This document shows positions 8,323 to 44,201 of a stretch of DNA of 46,526 nucleotides, one piece after another; the first letter of the stretch is position 1, and the number at the start of each line of letters is the position of its first letter. The notes beneath the pieces are model-generated. The model saw nothing but the letters and a program-made list of their open reading frames with translations. It was not told the origin of the DNA and did not search any database. A program made the translations under genes and the position numbers. This DNA comes from an uncultured Pirellulaceae bacterium (lineage in GTDB: Bacteria > Planctomycetota > Planctomycetia > Pirellulales > Pirellulaceae). Where the stretch lies: the NCBI GenBank assembly GCA_937941455.1, contig CALDHM010000039.1, positions 1 through 46,526 of the forward strand, written 5' to 3'.

Positions 8323-8901
8323 TTGACGGAGTGTGGCAACAGCACGACGCCTCGATTTTTTTTAACGCAAAGGTTCGCCAGTGTCCGGTCCCCCGGGCAC
8401 TCGTCGCCTCGCATCGGCGAGCGAATGTCATGAATTATCCGAGTTGTTGACTAGTCCCATTCATAGTTTTTTTGAAGTTGCTCGTCGCTCCCTCTGGGAC
8501 GGTCGGCCCACGGGGCAGGTAATCCCTGGCAAACTCCGAAAACGGTCTGGGAAGCAACTTCCGAGTCGCCTCTGCAGACGACTCTTTTCCCCGCCACGCG
8601 GCTGTGACACTATTATTTTTCGCGCCATTCACGTCACGGGGAGAAAAACAACCTCCATACTCTCCTGGCGGCAGTTGGCACGCGACCCTTCCGCGCGGCA
8701 GGCAGGGAGGCGGTTGTGGTTTCGCGTATGGACGAGAAAATTCTTAGGCAGGCTCGACAAATCGACGAATCAGCCACTCGCCGCACAAGTCAGCGCACGC
8801 CAGGCGGGCGACAAAAGTCCTTTGATACTGCTACAGCCTTATGGATTGAGGTACAATCTAGCAAGGAGTGGGGCTACATAAACGTTTGCAGGAACATTGT
8901 C
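8323..8901. other. intergenic region with a small hairpin, no gene supported
   Basis: About 580 bases between the glycosyltransferase and the DUF1553 gene. A hairpin at 8380-8401 (AGTGTCCGG / CCGGGCACT) looks like a cut-down copy of the dispersed repeat described elsewhere in this window. An open frame spans 8381-8881, but its composition (many Arg and Ser, no domain) suggests chance. TACAAT at 8852-8857 could be a -10 for the downstream gene, without a well-spaced -35. Confidence 0.4.
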
Positions 8902-11900
8902 ATGTATCGATCCTACCGACAGGTTGCCGCGATTCGCGGCATTCTTCTCGGCCATGCCGTATGTATCCTTGCCGCGCAAAGCAGCTGGGGCCAAGAAAGG
9001 CTGAGCTACAATCGGGACATCAAACCCATTCTGGCCGACAAATGCTTTGCCTGTCACGGTTTTGACGAAACGACCCGCCAGGCTGGACTGAGACTTGATA
9101 CGTTCCAGGGCGCAACCAGCGACGAAGGGGGTGACCCTGCGATTGTTCCGGGGAATTCGGCTGACAGTTCCCTCTGGCTCCGCATTACGTCCGATGATCC
9201 CGACGAAATTATGCCTCCGCCAAGCTCTCACAAGGTGCTGTCGGCCGATGAAATCGACAGGCTTAAACGTTGGATCGATGAGGGAGCCATTTACGAAATG
9301 CACTGGGCATTCACGCCGATCGTGCGCCCCCCTATACCGGGCGATTCTGCGTCAGACCAAAATCCTATCGACCGATTTATTGAGGCAAGGCTTTCGACCG
9401 TGGGCCGCCGCCTCGCCCCGGCCGCCGATCGCCGCACGCTGATTCGCCGCGTGGCGTTCACCCTGACTGGTTTGCCGCCAACAGTCGCGGAAGTCCGTCA
9501 GTTCCTCGCCGACGAGTCCCCGCATGCCTACCAAGCCATGGTGGATCGCTATCTTGCCTCACCGCACTACGGCGAGGAAATGGCACGCCACTGGCTCGAT
9601 TTGGCCCGTTATGGGGACACGCATGGTTTGCATCTCGATAATGAGCGGCAAATGTGGGCGTATCGCGATTGGGTCGTGAACAGTTTCAACCGGAATCAAC
9701 CGTTTCATGAATTTACTATCGAGCAGCTGGCCGGAGATTTGCTACCAGCCCCGACGATCGATCAACTGGTGGCCACCGGCTTCAATCGTTGCAATGTCAC
9801 AACCAGCGAAGGGGGGGCGATCGATGACGAATTTCGTTATCGATATGCCGTCGATCGCACCGTCACCATGGCTGAAACCTGGCTGGGACTTACGGCGGGA
9901 TGCGCAGTGTGCCACGATCACAAATTCGATCCCATCTCGACAGAAGAGTTTTATTCGCTGTACGCGTTCTTCAATTCGGCCGCTGATCCCCCGATGGATG
10001 GCAATGCACTGCTGACCAACCCCGTGCTGCGGCTTAGCACGCCAGAAGACGAACAACAGCTCGCCCAACTCGATTCATCGATTCGCGATCTCGAAGAGCA
10101 AATCCGGCTTGCAGCGGCTGCGATCCCGTACCTCGATCCGGCCGACGCGGACCAACCTGTGGAGGTAGTGCCCGCCGAAAACATCTGGTTTGATGACGAT
10201 TTTCCAGCGGGGGGGCAACTGTTATTCAATGGTCATCCGACGCAATTGGTGTCCGCCGACCAGGGCCCGGTTTACCGCGGGCTGAAATCGTTGAAACGCA
10301 CCTCGGAAGGACTTGCCCAAGACGTATGGTATCAGGCCAAAATCCCCCTACGTTTGCCGCGTGAGGGGCGTCTGTTTGCATGGGTCTTCATCGACGCTGC
10401 GAAACCTCCGCAAGCGGTCATGCTCCAATTCCACCGCGAAAACTGGGACCATCGAGCGGTCTGGGGCGATATCAATGCTATCCTTTGGGGCGAAGCTCAC
10501 ACCGCCTCTCGCGTTTATATGGGGCCGTTGCCTGAGTCGGGGAAGTGGACAAAACTCGAAGTGCCGCTCGAGAACGTCGGCTTGAATCCGGGAGATGAAC
10601 TCTCCGGCTTCGCGTTAACGCAATTCGGAGGGACAGTTTCTTGGGACCTCGTCGGCGTGACTGGCATCATCGATCCGGCGAACGATCCGTCGCGTTCGTT
10701 CCGCCGCTGGTGGGAGTCGGTCCGCGGTGTCAACGTTCCAGATTTGCCCGCCGAACTTAAAGATCTGGCGCAAGGGGGTCCACGTGAGGACGCGCCGCCG
10801 GAATTGGTCGAACGGCTGCGCCACCATTACCTGACATATGTCTCCGCCGAAACAAAAGTCGCGTTAGAACCTCTCGTCAACAAATGGAAGCAACGCCGAT
10901 TGGAACGCGACGAGTACGACCGGAAAATTCCGCGGACCTTCGTTTTTCGCGACGGTGAAAAGCGCCAGAGCTTCGTCATGAAACGAGGGCAGTACGATCA
11001 GCCCGGCAAGGCCGTCGAGCCGAACGTCCCGGCGGTACTCCCCAAGTTGCGCAAGTCGGACGACGGCCGACCAGCAAATCGTTTGGACCTGGCTCGGTGG
11101 ATCATGGCCGAGGAAAATCCGCTGACCGCGCGGGTCATCGTCAATCGCTTATGGCAGAAAGTATTCGGCACGGGGTTGGTAAAAAGCAGCGGAGACTTCG
11201 GAACCCAAGGCGACCTCCCTTCGCATCCGGAACTCCTGGACTTTTTAGCCACAGAGTTTCGCGAGTCGGGCTGGAATGTGAAACAGTTCCTCCGCTTGCT
11301 GATGACCTCCGAGACGTTTCGCCAGTCCTCGCGGATGACGCCCGACCTTCTCGAGCTCGATCCGGAGAATCGCTTGCTCGCACGCGGCCCACGATTCCGC
11401 TTGGATGCCGAGCAAATTCGCGACAATGCGTTGGCCGTAAGTGGCCTGCTCGACAAAACTTTCGGCGGAAAAGGGGTGAAGCCCTATCAGCCACCCAACA
11501 TTTGGGAACCGGTCGGCTACATCGATTCCAACACGCGGAATTACAAACAAGATTCTGGATCGGCGTTGTATCGTCGTAGTCTCTACACGTTCCTCAAACG
11601 GACCGCGCCTCCTCCGTTCATGGTGAATTTCGACGCGCCGAATCGCGAACAATCGTGCAGTCGCCGCCAACGCAGCAATACACCGCTCCAGGCGCTGCAG
11701 CTACTCAATGACGTACAACAAGTCGAGGCAGCGCGAAAACTCGCCGAGCGAGTCATGACGGAAGGACCAGCAAGTCCCCTGGGATCTCGTATCTCGGCGA
11801 TGTATGAAATCGTACTGGCCCGGGAACCGCGACCTGCAGAACTTGAGATTCTACAGCAGCAATACGAGTTGCATCGGCATCGATACGAACTAGATCAATC

Positions 11901-12030
11901 CGCGGCCGAGGCCCTCTTGGCTCTGGGCGAATCGCCACGCGATAGGACGTTGCCTTCGGCCGAGCTGGCGGCTCTGACCTTGCTGGCGAGCACTTTGTTG
12001 AACTTGGATGAGACACTGAACCTCAACTGA
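8902..12030 (+). CDS. PSCyt1-DUF1549-DUF1553 secreted cytochrome-like protein
   Basis: A 1042-residue exported protein of the architecture widespread in planctomycetes. After a signal peptide ([17 protein letters not shown], cut near residue 30) comes a PSCyt1 domain with the haem motif CFACH (residues 48-52). Then the DUF1549/PSCyt2 domain, with [15 protein letters not shown] and a second haem-type motif [11 protein letters not shown] (C334-H338). An insert of about 250 residues follows, possibly a sugar-binding-like beta domain, and then DUF1553/PSD1 with [13 protein letters not shown] and [20 protein letters not shown]. Such proteins are thought to act in the periplasm in polysaccharide breakdown or electron transfer. 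ATG 8902 is preferred to an upstream ATG because it starts the signal peptide and follows AGGA. The DUF1501 gene starts 4 bases after its stop. Confidence 0.9.
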
Positions 12031-12034
12031 CCGA

Positions 12035-13540
12035 ATGGCCAACAACATGAATGCTTTATCTGCTTGGCAATTGCGGCTGAACCGCCGAAATTTCTTTGGG
12101 CACCTCGGGTTGCGCTTGGGGGGGCTCTCGTTGGGCTTATTGGCGGGTAGTGCCTGTCGATCGGCAGCCGCAGCTGTCAACGATCAAGTCCAAGATGGGG
12201 TCGCCAAGGTCCATCCTCCGTTGCCGGGACTGCCACATTTTCCCCCCAAAGCCACATCGGTCATTTACTTGCACATGAACGGCGGGCCATCGCAAATCGA
12301 CACATGGGATCACAAGCCGGAGTTACATCGTTTCTTCGATCAAGATTTGCCGCCGAGTGTGCAGGGGGGGCAGCGTCTCTCGACGATGACCAGCGGCCAG
12401 TCTCGTTTTCCAGTAGCTCCTTCTAAATATCGCTTTGAACAGAAAGGCCAGTCGGGCGTGTGGGTCAACATGGATTTGTTTCCCCACACGGCCGAAATCG
12501 TCGATGAAATCGCCCTTGTTCGAACGGTGCACACCCATGCGATTAATCATGATCCGGCCTGCACCTTCGTGATGACGGGATCAGAAATTCCCGGCAAGGC
12601 GAGTTTAGGATCTTGGCTCGCTTATGGACTGGGCAGCGAGAACGACGACCTGCCGGCCTTCGTCGTGTTCACGCCCAAATATCCGCTCGACAGCAACGGC
12701 CAAGCTCTGTTCAGCCGCATGTGGAGCAGCGGCTTCCTGCCCACGCGCTACAACGGCGTGGCGCTTCGCGGGAGCGGTGATCCGGTCCTGTACCTCCCCA
12801 ATCCAGACGGCGTCGCACCCGCCGATCGCCGCGTCATGCTCGACGCTTTGAAAACACTCAATCAGCAAAACTATGAAGTCTTCGGCGATCCCGAAACCCT
12901 CACGAGAATTGCGCAGTACGAAATGGCGTTCCGCATGCAAGCCAGCGTGCCCGAATTGACGGATATCAGCCAGGAAACGGAATCGACGTTGGCTATGTAC
13001 GGCCCGGACGTTACGACTCCTGGATCGTTTGCCCATAGTGCGTTGCTGGCCCGTCGCCTTGTGGAACGTGGCGTGCGCGTCGTGCAGTTGTTGCACCGCG
13101 GTTGGGACCAGCATACCGATCTGCCTTATCAAATCGGCAATCAATGCCGGCAAACCGACCAACCCACGGCGGCTCTCATCAAAGATCTCAAACAGCGAGG
13201 CCTGCTCGACAGGACGCTCGTCGTTTGGGGGGGAGAATTCGGGCGCACGGTCTATTCGCAAGGAAAACTGACCAAGGACAACTATGGTCGGGATCACCAT
13301 CCGCGCAATTTTTGCATGTGGCTAGCAGGTGGTGGAATCCGCCCGGGGGTAATCCACGGCACCACCGACGACTTCAGCTACAACATCGTGGAGAATCCGG
13401 TTCACGTCAATGACATCAACGCCACGATCCTCCACTGCCTCGGCATCGACCACGAGCGATTCACGTTCAAATTCCAGGGGCTTGATCAGCGACTAACCGG
13501 AGTCGAGCCCCAACGAGTCGTCTCGGAAATTTTGGCTTGA
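12035..13540 (+). CDS. DUF1501 protein with Tat-type signal
   Basis: This 501-residue protein is the usual partner of the DUF1553 protein immediately upstream and is surely co-transcribed with it. The N-terminus has a twin-arginine signal ([23 protein letters not shown]), suggesting it is exported folded, perhaps with a metal. The body is an alkaline-phosphatase/sulfatase-like fold: [20 protein letters not shown] near residue 75, [11 protein letters not shown] near 170, and the C-terminal [11 protein letters not shown] and [17 protein letters not shown], which keep the Asp/His ligands of that superfamily. The substrate is unknown. Alternative starts at 12035 and 12047 cannot be separated by ribosome-binding sites. 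Confidence 0.92.
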
Positions 13541-18088: not shown

Positions 18089-20593
18089 CTAGTCCTTGAA
18101 TAAATTAGCCAACTCCTGCCAAGAGTTGGGAGAGGTTGGTGCTTCGGTCTGGGGTTCTGCCGGTAAATCTCCGCGATCGCTGGATTCCAGCAGTTCGATG
18201 GCTCCAGCCAGTCGCCGCGATGGTGCTGTCGATGCGGGTGTATTTGAGTCGATGCCATCAACCCTTCCGGTTGATTGCGTTTGCAAGGCGTCGCCTTCTT
18301 GCCGTCCGAACACGGCCGCAGCCAACTGGCTGAAATTCCAACCATCGTCAGCCAGCATTTGACCGCAGCAACTGGGGCAAATGCAACATCCGTCGTTCTC
18401 GCAAGAGCACGACATGGTGACATGTGTCTTGTCGAGTTCTTGCAATTGGGCAAGTGCTTGCCGCAGCATTCCATGGTCGTCGGTATTCCGATAGGTCGCC
18501 ATCATGAATGCGGGTGGCATGGCGGATTCATCCTGATACAAGACTCGTCCGTTTTGCATGGCCAAATAGGCCACCGCTTCGGCTTGATGTTGGATCTCGC
18601 CGTCTTTGGAGCGTTCTTCCTCAATAAAAAATCGGGTGCGGAAGCGATTATTGTTCAAGACGCGTACGGTGGCGGTATCCGCCTCGTTGTAGGTTTGCAT
18701 CGCTAGGAACAATGCCGGACGCCCGGTGAAATCGCTGCTGAAATCGACGATGAACGGCCGATTTGTCACTGAAACTCCCGTCAAGGCTGCTTCGACGCGG
18801 CGCCCGTTATGTGATCCTACGCCAGGTGTAATCGCAATGTAGTTGATCGATTCCGATTGATGGATCTGATCGGCATTCTCTTCTTCTTGGACTTGAATCT
18901 GGAAACCTGAACGCGTGACGTTCTGAATTCGGTGCGTCACCGCCGACCATTCGCGCGTGGTAGAAATTTGAGCGAAGACGATCGGATTCGACAAGAAGCC
19001 AGGATCTCCGGGCCCGCGCGAGAAGGAGACACTTTTCCAATTGTGATTAGCCGTCGTTCGCCCCACCTCGAGGCGCATCCCGTCATCGAGATGGTAAACC
19101 CCGGGCTGGAACACCATGTATGACACCGCTTCGGGACCATGAACTTTGTCAAGGTAATCCCACTCCTCAATGCGGGCCTCGAAGGTCGTGCGTGTGACGT
19201 TGCGCACTCGCACGGTCGAGGGATCCGAACCGTTGCGAGATAATCCTCCGAACACGACCACCGGCGGTTCAGCGTAGTTGTTGTTGAAGCGGAACGTTCG
19301 CCAGTTAGAATCCAGCTCGACGGTCCAGACCTCTCCAACGGCTTTCGGGCCACGCACTGGTTCGAGGATGTCCCCCTCGAAGATATAAAAGCCCATGCTG
19401 CCGTAATCAATGTTGTTGTTATTAACGTGTCCCACACCGTCGATTTTGAGATAGTAGACCCCTTGAGGTACCTCGATCGAAATCGATGTTTCGAATTGAT
19501 TGGCAGGATTGTGCGAGGCGAGTAGTTGTCCGGCTTCGTTGTACAACTCGATGGCTGGTTTTAGGTTGGGATGTTCCGCAAACGGAGAGATACGTAGCGA
19601 AATCCGACCGGCTCCCGTTTCAAACTTGAAAAAGTCGACATCGCTGGGACTGGAAATGAAACCCCAATCGAAAATCCGAGTCGCGCTGGACATTTTCGCA
19701 GTCGAGGCGGTTGCTCTGGTGTTGCCATGATCATCCGCACGGAATTGCAAACCGCGATTTCTCATTACTACATAGTCGTCTTCCGTGTTCGTCGCATCGG
19801 CGTACTCGCCCCGACTCCACTGAGTGTTGTTAGCGCTGAAGGGGGCGCCCATGATCGGCCCCCAACTCATCGTGCCGGATCCGGTACCAGGATGGTAGGC
19901 TTGGCTCCCCAAGCCGTCGTGGCGCAAGCCTAACGTGTGACCTACCTCGTGGGATGCCGTCAGCCCGCCGACGCGGAACCCTTTGTTGACGGTAAAGCAG
20001 GGAGTATCGTCCGATCGCCCGAAGGAATTCAAAACGGCAATCCCCCCCCACGGACCGTTGAAGTCCGGCGTCTGCTGGGTCATCAAACTGCGGACGCCGT
20101 AGAATTCGTCGTCAGGCGTGTTACGCAAGATTCGGTCGAGCCCAAGATCACGCGTCGTGACGTTGACATCGAAGGCAGCGAAATCCTCAGCGGTCTGTTG
20201 CCAAGTTTTCTGGATTTCAATCAACTCAGCGGTGCTGAACGAGTCAGGATTTCCATCGAGGTCGAAGGCCGGAAAAATGACATCATGATTCCACGCGTTG
20301 TTGCGCGAATGATGGCCATTGAAGTCCAAGTAGATCGTTTTGGTCGAAAACGGGTTCGATTCGAGCAAGAAGGTATCTTCGAGGCGGTACGGCACCGGAG
20401 CAGTCGGGTCGCCTAAGGTTAAGACTCCGTTGATGTAGGCCGGGAAAAGTGCTGCAAGCAATTGGCGATATTCGAGGTGCTCGAACTGCAATTCAGGAAT
20501 GGCCACCCGCATCCTGGACTTGGGTCGATTCTGCGTTCGGTTTTGGGAATTCGTCGCGTTGACCTGTCGCCCTGAAACCAATTTCTTTTTCAT
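18089..20593 (-). CDS. giant secreted metzincin-type protease with PPC and lectin-like repeats
   Basis: An 834-residue protein. Residues 36-48 (FEHLEYRQLLAAL) match the LExRxLLA-type motif found at the N-terminus of large exported planctomycete proteins. The catalytic domain has HEVGHTLGLRHD (215-226), the zinc-binding HExxHxxGxxH/D of metzincins, and MSWGPIMG downstream as a Met-turn-like segment. About residues 300-415 form a bacterial pre-peptidase C-terminal (PPC) domain (PSDVDFFKFETGAG, GVYYLKIDG). Residues ~416-690 are three repeats of about 85 residues with NVTRTTFEARIEEWDYLD-type cores, shared with the subtilase at the other end of the window. A Cys cluster (7 Cys in 15 residues) follows near 730. 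ATG 20593 has AAGGAG upstream. Confidence 0.85.
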   Translation of the reverse strand: MKKKLVSGRQVNATNSQNRTQNRPKSRMRVAIPELQFEHLEYRQLLAALFPAYINGVLTLGDPTAPVPYRLEDTFLLESNPFSTKTIYLDFNGHHSRNNAWNHDVIFPAFDLDGNPDSFSTAELIEIQKTWQQTAEDFAAFDVNVTTRDLGLDRILRNTPDDEFYGVRSLMTQQTPDFNGPWGGIAVLNSFGRSDDTPCFTVNKGFRVGGLTASHEVGHTLGLRHDGLGSQAYHPGTGSGTMSWGPIMGAPFSANNTQWSRGEYADATNTEDDYVVMRNRGLQFRADDHGNTRATASTAKMSSATRIFDWGFISSPSDVDFFKFETGAGRISLRISPFAEHPNLKPAIELYNEAGQLLASHNPANQFETSISIEVPQGVYYLKIDGVGHVNNNNIDYGSMGFYIFEGDILEPVRGPKAVGEVWTVELDSNWRTFRFNNNYAEPPVVVFGGLSRNGSDPSTVRVRNVTRTTFEARIEEWDYLDKVHGPEAVSYMVFQPGVYHLDDGMRLEVGRTTANHNWKSVSFSRGPGDPGFLSNPIVFAQISTTREWSAVTHRIQNVTRSGFQIQVQEEENADQIHQSESINYIAITPGVGSHNGRRVEAALTGVSVTNRPFIVDFSSDFTGRPALFLAMQTYNEADTATVRVLNNNRFRTRFFIEEERSKDGEIQHQAEAVAYLAMQNGRVLYQDESAMPPAFMMATYRNTDDHGMLRQALAQLQELDKTHVTMSCSCENDGCCICPSCCGQMLADDGWNFSQLAAAVFGRQEGDALQTQSTGRVDGIDSNTPASTAPSRRLAGAIELLESSDRGDLPAEPQTEAPTSPNSWQELANLFKD

Positions 20594-21126
20594 CACTCTC
20601 GATTTCTCCTTAAAAGAAGGAATTCGTTTCGCCCCACAAAACCCGATTTGATCCAGCTTGAGTCCATGGCATTCATGTCGCTTTGCCGATTGACTTCCCG
20701 GCAACGTGGTTGCCGATTGACTTGATCTTCCTACTTGTTTTCCCCGGTCGCCCCAACGAACCGATCACCGCGCCGGCGACAGAGCCTGGCCTTGCCACCA
20801 AAGCATATCCCAAACGTGCAACGAATGCGCCACTAGATCGCTGCCGACCACGTGTCTACGCTCGTCGGTCGCACTGGCAAATTCGGTTGAGACTGGTTGC
20901 GAGGGTTGCGGGATCGACAAGCAGTTCAAACGAACAAAATTGGCCCTCGCGATTCTAGCGACAGCCAACGGACGCCGGTCCTCTTTTTGCCTCAAGTGGA
21001 GCAGTCCCATTTCGCAGCAGGACAGTACCGCGAAGTGTTGACGTTCCGCTACTGAATTTTATTTCGCAAAACTCCCGGTGGACGACCTTTTTTCGGCAAA
21101 TGCCGGGATTAAGGCAATCGTCGGGA
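20594..21126. other. intergenic region with a hairpin inside a 14-base direct repeat
   Basis: About 530 bases upstream of the metzincin gene and downstream of the squalene-synthase-like gene. TTGCCGATTGACTT occurs at 20683-20696 and 20710-20723, and a perfect hairpin CGGCAAC-gtg-GTTGCCG (20699-20715) lies between and overlaps the second copy. No gene is supported in the rest. Confidence 0.5.
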
Positions 21127-41171: not shown

Positions 41172-44066
41172 TTAGATTCGGCTAAAGGCCTCATCGAGTT
41201 CTGCGGTCGATACAGCTTTAATTTTGGAAGCGGCTTGATCGCCAAACATTTCAGCGAAAGCGACCGAACGATTACTGAGACCACTGGATCGGTTCGTTGC
41301 AGCGTTGGCGGTCGCTTGGGGTCGCGACCGGTTGACGGTGCCGCCAGTCACGTTGTGAGCAGCCTTGGTGCCGGTCCCTGCACGCGTCGCGCCGGGTTGG
41401 AGGCCAAAAGCGTGCCCGATCAATCCCAAGTTATTTTCCGCGGGTGGAGCCGTCATCGCAAACCGATCGTTTCCATGATTGCTCGGTGGGGCGGACATCG
41501 TTGAAAACCTCGGCATGCCCAACGGATTATCGATTACGACACCCGCAGGAAATGCCACGAAGCCGACGGTCTCCGGGGCGGTACGTTCGATTTCACGATC
41601 CCGCGACCGTTCTTCTTCAAGGTGGATCAACGCCGAGCGGTAACTCAGTTGCCGTTGCCGCACGATGGCCGGGTCGGCATCATTGAAGGTTTGCGTTTGT
41701 GCGAAAAACGCTGGGCGTGTCCCCGCGAAGGCAGGGTCGAAGTTGATGCGATGATCAAGGTGGGTCACTGCATTCGGGGTACGCCCTGCTAACAGGTCGC
41801 CTCCATTGGCTGTGAATCGGCCCGGTTCAAAGGCTACCCACGAAACTGTCTCAAAGGCATGGAATCCGTCTGCCCCCTCTTCCTCTTGCAAGCGCATCGA
41901 AAAACCGGTTTTTGTTACATTTCGTACGCGGACGATGACCGGAGAGCGCTCGTTCGCTGTGGTGACTTGGGCCAGCACGATGGGGACTTGATCGAAGTTC
42001 ACCGAACTGCCAAAGGAAACATCGCGGAAGGTGTGGTTGACCTGTGAGCGGCCAGCCATCAGTGTCGCCCCATTGTCGAGCGTATGTCGACCACGCTCGA
42101 ATACCATGTAGGGAACGTGTTCCATGCCGTGGATGCCGTCGAGATAGCTCCACTCTTCGACGCGGGCCTCGAAACTACCGCGAAAGGCTCCACTGCCCGA
42201 TCTGACATTTTGCACGCGGACAGTCATCGGATCATTTCGGTATCGCGAGGGAGTTCCCAAAATAACGACCGGATCCGAGTACCGGCGGCTGAAGGTAATG
42301 GTCCGCCAGTTGCTATTGAGCGGCAGGATTCTCGACTCACCCACGACACGTGGATCATCATTGATGATGGTTCCCGTGCCAATAGGATTGGCCAATCTGC
42401 CGTTTCGCGGTTGTGAAAGGACCACTCGGAATGTTTCATTTGGCTCATAAAAGTTATCGCCGATGATTTGTACGGTGATCGTTTTTGAGGTCTCGCCCGG
42501 TTGGAAAGTCAAGACACCACTGGTGGCCACAAAGTCTTCGCCGGCATTCGCCGTCCCATTTTGCGTTGCGTAATTTACACTCACAATGTCGGGCCAAGCT
42601 TCTGCCAGCGTGACAGTGAACGTCATGGGCTTAGTTCCCGAATTTCCCTCAACGACCGAAGCGTTGCCGATGAAAATGTCCGGGCCAACAGCGACGACGA
42701 GATTTTCCAAATTCAATCGTCCGCCCGTCGAGACTTTGCCGTCCAACGACGTCGTCGGCTCGGCGGAATCGATCAGAGCCTGGCGGATTTGAGCGGCCGT
42801 GGCATCGGGGTTGACCGCCGCGTATAGGGCAACCGCGCCGACTACGTGCGGTGCCGCCATGGACGTTCCATCGAAGGAAGCGTATTGGTTGTTCGGCTGT
42901 GTCGACCAAATGGCGGCACCGGGTGCCGCGATATGAACGGTGGTGGCTCCGTAATTGGAAAAACTCGCCAGGTTTCCTGAAGAAGCCAGTGCCGCGACCG
43001 TGACAATCGCATTGTATCCCGCCGACGCGGTCGTGTCGTAGTTCGCTGGGTATACGGGTGACGCATCATTGTCACTGGAGCTATTCCCGGCAGCGACGAT
43101 CGTTAAAATATCGGCCTGAGCCGCCCGTGTGATGGCATCGAATAAGGCCTGAGAATTTCCGACCGACCAGGACGCGTTGGCGGCCACAATGTTGATGCCA
43201 TGGCGAGTTTTCAAATCGGTGATGTAGTCGAACGATGAGATTGCGGCCGATGCGATCGGGAAGGCGGTGCCGATCCGCATGGCGATAATGTTGACATCCC
43301 AGTTCAGTCCGGCGATGCCGATCCCGTTGCCCCCTTTGGCGCCGATCGTGCCCGCGATGTGAGTTCCGTGGCCTTGCTGGTCCATCGGATCGCTGTTGTT
43401 ATTTTCAAAATTCCATCCGCGCACGTCGTCGATGAATCCGTTGCCGTCGTTATCAACTCCATCTTGCGGATCGAATGGGTTATTAAAAGCGTTCGGGTTC
43501 AAGTCGGGGTGGTTGTAATCAACACCGGTATCAATCACGGCGACATAAACATCCGTTGATCCGGTTGTGACGTTTTGCCAAATCTTTTCCGCTTGGGTAC
43601 CAAACTGATTTGTGGTCCCGTCCGGGCCGATCGGATTCGGGAGATCGTTGCTGTACGTCCCCCACAGGCGACCGTCCTCATACATCGGATCGTTGGCTAC
43701 CGCGTAAAATGAGCCGATGTAGTTTGGTTCAGCGAAGCGAACTCCAGGAATCATCTGCGCTTGCAGAATCCCTTCTTCGACCGTTTTTCCAACCAAGCGA
43801 ACTCGTTCGATGGCTCCCAGTCCGCGATCTTGCATGGGACGGGTGTGGATCGTCTCGATCGAGGTTGCGCCAAGGCTTGCGATCACGGCCTGGCGGAGCG
43901 ACGCACTTTGCGGTTGAAACTGGATCAGCAATTCGCCCGGCATGTACGCAGCCAGCACGCGGCGCGCCTCCAATTCCTCGTAGTGGATTGGCGTTTTCAG
44001 TTGCTCTCGTTGGCGAGCGGCAGTATTGACGCGATGATTGTGACGGCGAGAACGACGGCTTGGCAT
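41172..44066 (-). CDS. giant secreted subtilisin-like protease with Calx-beta and lectin-like repeats
   Basis: A 964-residue S8 protease. Residues 30-40 (EELEARRVLAA) carry the LExRxLLA-type N-terminal motif of large planctomycete exported proteins. A propeptide-like segment spans ~42-118. The triad is D179 (YVAVIDTGVDYNHPDL), H235 (GHGTHIAGTI) and S402 (FDGTSMAAPHVVGA), with the oxyanion Asn in VAAGNSSS. VDNDGNGFIDD near 205 looks calcium-binding. A Calx-beta domain follows at ~455-565 (DFVATSGVLTFQPGETSKTI), then three repeats (~574-842) shared with the metzincin near 19000. The tail is low-complexity Ala/Asn/Gly/Thr. ATG 44066 follows TTGGAG at 8 bases. Confidence 0.9.
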   Translation of the reverse strand: MPSRRSRRHNHRVNTAARQREQLKTPIHYEELEARRVLAAYMPGELLIQFQPQSASLRQAVIASLGATSIETIHTRPMQDRGLGAIERVRLVGKTVEEGILQAQMIPGVRFAEPNYIGSFYAVANDPMYEDGRLWGTYSNDLPNPIGPDGTTNQFGTQAEKIWQNVTTGSTDVYVAVIDTGVDYNHPDLNPNAFNNPFDPQDGVDNDGNGFIDDVRGWNFENNNSDPMDQQGHGTHIAGTIGAKGGNGIGIAGLNWDVNIIAMRIGTAFPIASAAISSFDYITDLKTRHGINIVAANASWSVGNSQALFDAITRAAQADILTIVAAGNSSSDNDASPVYPANYDTTASAGYNAIVTVAALASSGNLASFSNYGATTVHIAAPGAAIWSTQPNNQYASFDGTSMAAPHVVGAVALYAAVNPDATAAQIRQALIDSAEPTTSLDGKVSTGGRLNLENLVVAVGPDIFIGNASVVEGNSGTKPMTFTVTLAEAWPDIVSVNYATQNGTANAGEDFVATSGVLTFQPGETSKTITVQIIGDNFYEPNETFRVVLSQPRNGRLANPIGTGTIINDDPRVVGESRILPLNSNWRTITFSRRYSDPVVILGTPSRYRNDPMTVRVQNVRSGSGAFRGSFEARVEEWSYLDGIHGMEHVPYMVFERGRHTLDNGATLMAGRSQVNHTFRDVSFGSSVNFDQVPIVLAQVTTANERSPVIVRVRNVTKTGFSMRLQEEEGADGFHAFETVSWVAFEPGRFTANGGDLLAGRTPNAVTHLDHRINFDPAFAGTRPAFFAQTQTFNDADPAIVRQRQLSYRSALIHLEEERSRDREIERTAPETVGFVAFPAGVVIDNPLGMPRFSTMSAPPSNHGNDRFAMTAPPAENNLGLIGHAFGLQPGATRAGTGTKAAHNVTGGTVNRSRPQATANAATNRSSGLSNRSVAFAEMFGDQAASKIKAVSTAELDEAFSRI

Positions 44067-44172
44067 CGAAAGACTCCAACAAATAAACGCGATAAGACTC
44101 GAGAGGTCGGATCGAACTATTCGGCAAACTCCACAGATCAAGACGCGGCTGTTTGTCCAAATATTTGTCTTT

Positions 44173-44201
44173 AGTATAACCAATTTCTCAAGAAAACCCA
44201 A
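44173..44201 (-). promoter_or_regulatory. candidate promoter of the subtilase gene
   Basis: On the minus strand TTGGGT (44196-44201) and TATACT (44173-44178) are 17 bases apart. The start codon is about 100 bases downstream. The -35 matches only at TTG, so this is tentative. Confidence 0.35.

Follow-up and report, generated by a model that had tools for sequence, protein, structure and literature searches.

A near-obligate trio of H-type lectin-like repeats shared by a metzincin and a subtilase of a Pirellulaceae bacterium and by other exported-looking prokaryotic proteins

Discoidins and the octocoral lectin SLL-2 carry one H-type lectin domain per chain, and the agglutinins of Helix pomatia and Helix aspersa (Pfam H_lectin, PF09458) are built from copies of one chain. 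The H-type-fold relatives tabulated in the excerpt of PMC6116203 are trimeric, and their sugar sites are carried by the distal loops L1, L3 and L5 (PMC6363177 and PMC6116203, in excerpt). The R-type pyocin foot, AP22 gp53 and the C-terminal domains of the LKA1 and phi297 tailspikes, relatives of Gp53-like_C, have the same fold; the same two excerpts describe such domains as trimeric and as proposed binders of surface polysaccharide, in pyocins by the distal loops. The jelly-roll also recurs in phage spikes, Helix agglutinin, FlhE and the subtilisin Tk-SP, for which the excerpt of PMC5701251 proposes a role in stability. Here we analyze a 46,526-nucleotide stretch of DNA from an uncultured Pirellulaceae bacterium (GenBank assembly GCA_937941455.1, contig CALDHM010000039.1, positions 1 to 46,526, forward strand; hereafter the window), in which two otherwise unrelated proteases, a metzincin and a subtilase, share a module of three H-type lectin-like repeats. 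On our preferred reading, to which we give a probability of about 60%, the module is an H-type lectin trimer fused into a single chain, which anchors exported proteins to a glycan, perhaps with the help of a metal.

The module occupies residues 454-725 of the metzincin open reading frame (ORF; 18530-19345, minus strand) and residues 618-895 of the subtilase ORF (41517-42350, minus strand). The initial annotation of this DNA, made from the letters alone, had proposed a module common to two giant proteases. Its DNA coordinates were nearly right; its residue ranges (~416-690 and ~574-842) fit downstream start codons and are corrected here, and with ORFs of only 871 and 1009 aa the proteases are not giant. 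A BLASTP comparison of the two proteins gave a single strong match of 278 columns with 43% identity (203 bits, E 4e-58), and the sequence motifs that had been quoted are present in both. The alignment of the two modules is not reduced to a few motifs, as the Smith-Waterman score was 514 against a maximum of 67 from shuffled sequences (n=1000), which excludes chance sharing of motifs. The parts of the two proteases that precede the module scored 47, with a shuffle maximum of 61 (n=200). Because these parts are at shuffle level, the similarity is confined to the module, and homology of the whole proteins was excluded. Only two module places were found in the genome of the window (4.04 Mb, 77 contigs, 96% complete). 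A recent neighboring duplication within this genome was also excluded, since separate counterparts of both genes are present in another genome of the same genus, ~739 kb apart on one contig and with 70% and 82% module identity.

Each module is composed of three repeats, designated R1, R2 and R3 (Table 1), that are homologous to each other as the initial annotation had noticed, with hhalign probabilities of 99.8% for R1/R2, 99.3% for R1/R3 and 99.6% for R2/R3. The resemblance to H-type lectins that it had also suggested was borne out by Pfam in the metzincin, where H_lectin reached 35.4 bits over the whole protein in two stretches and passed the cut-off of 24. The subtilase reached 18.3 bits (E 0.0026) and did not pass, so that the link of its module to H_lectin rests on the 43% identity to the metzincin module. 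In a six-frame H_lectin search of the genome, no single match in either protease was above the cut-off (20.0-21.0 bits). An AlphaFold2 model of the whole module, built from 65 aligned modules, showed seven strands in each repeat, a pLDDT of 95.8 and a pTM of 0.92, a value high enough to suggest that the predicted sandwiches sit rigidly relative to one another and are not loose beads.

Modeled alone, R1 had a pLDDT of 89.9 and a pTM of 0.78, and its top structural matches were the LKA1 gp49 tailspike (Z 8.8) and AP22 gp53 (Z 8.4), together with the Helix agglutinins (Z 8.0-8.3, 2.4-2.5 Å over 76-78 aa), discoidin II (Z 8.2), R2 pyocin (Z 7.6) and SLL-2 (Z 7.5). Ranks 16-20 were phage receptor-binding proteins, and the first clearly unrelated fold, ZapD, appeared at rank 21 with Z 5.3. 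Foldseek placed Helix agglutinins at ranks 1-4 for the R1 model (E 0.010-0.020); with the whole-module model, it matched single repeats to SLL-2 and the Helix agglutinins 2ce6, 2cgy and 4q56 with a probability of 0.96-0.99. When the whole-module model was searched, the top 16 rows (Z 4.1-5.6) contained pyocin feet, AP22 gp53, Helix agglutinins, discoidins and SLL-2 as well as the LKA1, phi297 and Pam1 tailspikes, and R2 and R3 within this model matched the same H-type-fold group with Z 4.1-5.6. The H-type beta-sandwich is thus well supported for the modeled R1.

Several differences separate the module from these relatives. The Helix agglutinins share the repeat fold and the Pfam family passed by the metzincin, and their sugar-side loops, chiefly L5 (T82-S90 in the excerpt of PMC6363177), correspond to the most conserved loops of the module, a likeness that is partly circular. 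In contrast to the copies of one chain in the agglutinins, three non-equivalent repeats stand in one chain here, and the snail loop L5 is replaced by a D..H..E motif. The H-type domains of discoidins I and II and SLL-2 belong to the fold group of R1, but unlike the hosts of the module these proteins are eukaryotic and have no protease partner. The pyocin and phage domains form trimers of separate chains on phage-like fibers, and pyocin loops are variable whereas those of the module are conserved. Tk-SP of Thermococcus kodakaraensis, likened here by description only, is also a subtilase and contains a domain whose fold is related, but the role reported for it is stability (PMC5701251, in excerpt).

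To assess how regularly the three repeats occur together, GTDB was scanned with the R1 pattern, which gave 219 stretches, 210 of them encoding relatives, and the best 80 loci were kept. Three repeats were present in 56 of the 80 host ORFs, six in 22 and nine in one; the remaining ORF (L081) had six repeats plus a 16-bit partial R1. The order R1-R2-R3 was followed without exception and no ORF had one, two, four or five repeats, with some end repeats truncated by contig ends. The search favors the leading module in an ORF, but detection of a locus did not depend on the 25 additional modules, and every one of these was a complete R1-R2-R3. At one locus (L122/L200, G145:C251), R1 seems to be split across two frames by a frame shift, either in the gene itself or from assembly; the 123-aa L200 frame with a 16-bit R1 piece looks like the start of the R1 in the next frame and was not tallied apart. 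A planctomycete check covered 20 ORFs from 19 hand-chosen regions found by profile (L200 and L203 are also among the 80; three ORFs of genome G057 were taken, and G040, G036:C167 and G036:C321 were left out). Exact R1-R2-R3 units were present in 15 of these 20 ORFs, and two others (L197 second ORF and L207) had three repeats with another best label. In the sets counted, the triplet is near-obligate.

A tree of 90 repeats from 30 modules, drawn from a 65-row alignment, separated each of R1, R2 and R3 from the other repeats by a single branch, with SH-aLRT values of 97, 94 and 95; the tree is unrooted and has few columns, and the grouping appeared in 0 of 500 shuffles. For the alignment, 68 of the 80 loci were tried and five of these were dropped for length, the other 12 being untried. 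The separate grouping of the repeats by position is most simply read as a single old triplication before the module spread, with the trio traveling whole thereafter. Tandem lectin domains are common, and the best PDB matches of the module fall on single repeats, as expected if it were three independent tandem domains whose number has no structural meaning. We consider this very improbable given that 79 of the 80 ORFs have 3, 6 or 9 repeats, that the tree groups are position-specific and the pTM is 0.92, and that the planctomycete set holds 15 exact units and two relabeled trios beside three split or partly unscored ORFs. The fold and the three-repeat unit are well supported.

The initial annotation had further suggested that the module, found on proteases of two clans, moves as a unit, and had called for a search of other genomes. 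The complete trios and the repeat tree groups agree with this, and the search found the module on many kinds of exported-looking proteins. Pfam was run on 47 hosts, comprising 41 of the 80 loci and six same-genus proteins. Zincin proteases were present in 10 (L159 sub-threshold) and S8 peptidases in seven; the other partners were GH25, GH9, pectate-lyase-like, sugar dehydrogenase, DUF1800, lysyl oxidase and carbohydrate-binding module (CBM) domains, as well as LamG, cadherin, PKD, fn3 and TSP3. H_lectin itself was above the cut-off in only 29 of the 47; another 13 hosts had sub-threshold matches and five had none at E 0.01. As the triplet is also left unmarked by Pfam, carriers can go unlabeled. 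In the same-genus genome G297 there are four carriers, namely two metzincins, a subtilase and a lysyl oxidase; the last, with PPC and P-proprotein domains (L158:2722-5901), brings together a crosslinking enzyme and the lectin trio. Five Verrucomicrobia loci (L082, L085, L093, L105 and L107) have two modules each near the N-terminus, followed by CHRD and DUF1800 domains in L082 and L093, the two that were scanned. In a module tree, the subtilase module of the window lies near metzincin modules (support of 86, open), and the metzincin module pairs with that of L049 (90), whose host is a subtilase. On the basis of these placements, which cross subtilase and metzincin hosts, protease partners appear, with modest support, to have been swapped among members of the genus. 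More widely, the module seems to have been transferred intact among subtilases, metzincins, lysozyme, GH9, lysyl oxidase and adhesin-like chains.

The 80 best loci include Planctomycetota, Gemmatimonadota, Cyanobacteriota, Chloroflexota, Pseudomonadota, Thermodesulfobacteriota and Bacteroidota, together with Verrucomicrobiota, Lentisphaerota, Spirochaetota, Nitrospirota, CPR lineages and Halobacteriales. Within its own phylum the module is patchy, being found with a 65-row profile in 16 of 392 genomes, or 11 when only the 217 good genomes are counted, and with a two-row profile in 11 of 294. Besides the genome of the window, a search of relatives was positive in 4/4 same-genus, 1/20 same-family and 0/15 same-order genomes, and the 65-row profile added one weak same-family genome (G205); the four same-genus genomes fit a planctomycete origin of the window. 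In the planctomycete genome G057, 13 matches to R3 lie in ORFs of 1244-2753 aa, not every candidate of which was scored. Module matches were also found in 20 plasmid records, of which 15 are from Haladaptatus, Halocatena or Thioclava, and RefSeq names three of these 20 plasmid relatives "H-type lectin domain-containing protein". The Haladaptatus caseinilyticus plasmid NZ_CP111040.1 matches the module at eight places and encodes an S8 peptidase that ends in it (L163:10696-12750). A scan of viral contigs yielded 0 relatives among 79 pattern stretches, and the single match among phage records was weak (E 0.008) and came from a halovirus with two entries. The BFVD model UPI001E6AE1CA_1, a 784-aa viral protein, matched the whole three-repeat module (E 8.6e-17, TM 0.84), and given this predicted structure, viruses may carry the module.

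We propose that three H-type lectin beta-sandwiches are fused in the fixed order R1-R2-R3 into one unit of ~270 residues, which would probably be a natural one-chain equivalent of the trimers into which other H-type-fold domains assemble. A fused trimer, whose repeats would pack with three-fold symmetry, is suggested by the fixed trio in one predicted unit and by the trimeric relatives. The distal loops would attach to a glycan of the cell surface or of a matrix, possibly helped by a metal ion; the bound module would then hold the exported enzyme or adhesin close to its target. The initial annotation had suggested that the module may target the two proteases to a shared surface, glycan or partner. 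These loops are the candidate sugar site because they are more conserved than the opposite loops and because the relatives bind sugar with them. Most of the conserved motifs of the module fall in them. Distal loops averaged 2.20 bits and proximal loops 1.46 bits; R1 loop L5 is the scan pattern itself, so that its invariance is circular, and with this motif removed the values were 2.04 and 1.46 bits (p 0.001). The partners found, including proteases, GH25, GH9, CBMs, pectate-lyase-like domains, LamG, PKD and fn3, are in keeping with docking.

Residues kept in every repeat bear on what these loops might hold. Over the 65 rows, Arg is kept in 64, 64 and 61 (R1, R2 and R3), His in 63, 61 and 64, and Glu in 64, 64 and 65, while D159 of R2 is Asp in only 32. 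In the R3 column, His stands in 64 rows and Arg in one, and the subtilase of the window has Arg. The modules of G057 are without the R1 loop motif EWDYLDGxH and keep, by eye, the motifs of R2 and R3. The His lost from the subtilase R3 and the R1 motif lost in G057 suggest that the sites may be able to specialize, and the Arg-Glu-Asp-His-Glu set could possibly form a metal site.

The same acidic, His-containing distal loops could instead dock the module on a non-glycan partner, such as a surface protein, an S-layer or a metal-rich matrix. The near-invariant R, H and E in every repeat would fit such a partner, as would the R2 pyocin foot, in which the excerpt of PMC6363177 describes metal in the loops, with a divalent cation bound where the trimer subunits meet, in a negatively charged cavity. 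We judge this unlikely, purely by argument, since a single conserved protein partner shared by planctomycetes, Bacteroidota, sulfate reducers, cyanobacteria, CPR and haloarchaea is implausible and a common sugar is easier to accept. Somewhat less likely still, in our view, is a rigid beta-sandwich stabilizer that protects or folds the attached exported protein and has no ligand of its own. The similar-structure domain of Tk-SP is said to raise stability in the excerpt of PMC5701251, and the R, E, H, E residues conserved in the repeats may have a structural role. However, the partners are many and unrelated and include PKD, fn3, cadherin and TSP3 chains with no catalytic domain in the Pfam scan, the module also lies N-terminal of the enzyme domain (L097, L054, L071, L082 and L093), and the conservation is on the sugar side.

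Several observations weigh against a fused glycan-docking trimer. Foldseek gave no match at E ≤ 0.001 in the PDB for either the whole-module or the R1 model, and the top rows by E-value for the whole module were unrelated chains. A sequence profile searched against the PDB ranked Helix agglutinins first at E 0.38-0.53 with Erlin-1 interleaved at 0.52; as such sequence-only matches are weak, the case for the fold is carried by the predicted model. Whole-length matches to fused or pseudo-trimers were confined to Z 2.2-3.8 at ~5-6 Å, with the unrelated 7byf_C at Z 3.7. The distal loops are not significantly more conserved than the strands (p 0.26), and the Helix agglutinin positions that we take to be sugar contacts, Trp83 among them, are not generally kept, Trp standing at the Trp83 position in R1 only. 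The R..E..H..E..Y/W set of each repeat could as well be a structural salt-bridge network. Finally, three of the 20 planctomycete ORFs depart from the full pattern through splitting or missing scores: R2 is split in L198 and not scorable in either module of L199, and L208 has one scorable repeat.

PCSK9 is a subtilase with a C-terminal trio, and the model matched its C-terminal domain weakly over the whole length, as it did the single-chain adiponectin trimer 4dou (Z 3.5, 201 aa) and EBV dUTPase, which we take to be a single-chain mimic of a trimer. These three matches agree weakly with a fused trimer on the modeled structure. PCSK9 and the adiponectin trimer likewise place three beta-sandwiches on one chain (Z at best 3.5) but belong to other sequence families, and the likeness is an analogy only.

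Both proteases in the window appear to be exported (Table 1), and the LExRxxLAA near their N-termini resembles the planctomycete export motif. The metzincin matched the Reprolysin_3, Reprolysin_5 and DUF4953 Met-zincin profiles of Pfam, all sub-threshold, and contains a candidate Met-turn, IMG. A cysteine-rich tail, CSCENDGCCICPSCCGQ, lies C-terminal of the module in the metzincin ORF. Membership of the subtilase in S8 is indicated both by profile and by the D, H and S motifs, with Pfam matches to Peptidase_S8 (5.2e-49), Calx-beta (1.6e-22) and Fervidolysin_NPro (6.5e-9). Of ten further ORFs of the window in the Pfam scan, one was without a match; most of the ten belong to housekeeping families or to families common in planctomycetes, and no theme unites them. 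A PSCyt1/PSCyt2/PSD1 protein followed by a DUF1501 protein at 8716-13540 (plus strand) represents a common planctomycete pair.

Table 1. Positions of the two proteases, their motifs and the repeats of the shared module in the window
Feature	Position	Strand	Remark
Metzincin ORF	18089..20704	-	871 aa from longest start; true start may be downstream; exported
Metzincin export-like motif LEYRQLLAA (planctomycete type)	20450..20476	-	Planc_extracel sub-threshold, E 0.12
Metzincin zinc-binding motif HEVGHTLGLRH	19919..19951	-	Pattern HExxHxxGxxH
Metzincin R1, H-type lectin fold	19079..19345	-	Borders from structure model
Metzincin R2	18806..19078	-	Holds best Pfam H_lectin stretch, 582-625
Metzincin R3	18530..18805	-	Homologous to R1 and R2 by hhalign
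Subtilase ORF	41172..44201	-	1009 aa; exported; order prodomain, S8, Calx-beta, module
Subtilase export-like motif LEARRVLAA (planctomycete type)	43947..43973	-	Planc_extracel sub-threshold, E 0.21
Subtilase motif DTGV	43521-43532	-	Motif match
Subtilase motif GHGTH	43359-43373	-	Motif match
Subtilase catalytic Ser motif GTSMAAP	42849..42869	-	Motif match
Subtilase R1	42069..42350	-	Aligned to metzincin module
Subtilase R2	41805..42068	-	Pfam H_lectin 734-791, E 0.0026, below cut-off
Subtilase R3	41517..41804	-	Usual His replaced by Arg

The domain family of the repeats is known and named (PF09458). A three-repeat prokaryotic H-type lectin unit was not found in the titles and abstract openings of the open-license PMC literature, a search that mostly leaves subscription papers outside. 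The suggestion in the initial annotation that the assembly may be undescribed is therefore uncontradicted, and the three-repeat unit on prokaryotic exported proteins appears new within the literature searched.

The fold of snail and slime-mold lectins and of phage fiber tips thus seems to occur as a fused, asymmetric trio on many prokaryotic secreted proteins, while the chains of those known relatives assemble as trimers (a hexamer in the snail agglutinin). Tentatively, and with slightly less than an even chance of being right, we extend our reading to a general-purpose prokaryotic docking domain: a single-chain trimer with three specialized, possibly metal-assisted Arg-Glu-Asp-His-Glu sites on the sugar side, which would have arisen by one old triplication and later passed between bacteria and haloarchaea as an add-on to exported proteases, glycan hydrolases, lysyl oxidases and adhesins. 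The module can be tested experimentally, as a cultured and named archaeon, H. caseinilyticus, carries a subtilase with it. Should all three sites recognize a single conserved glycan, the module would reveal what the exoenzymes hold on to, and it would also offer a ready-made single-chain lectin scaffold with three sites.

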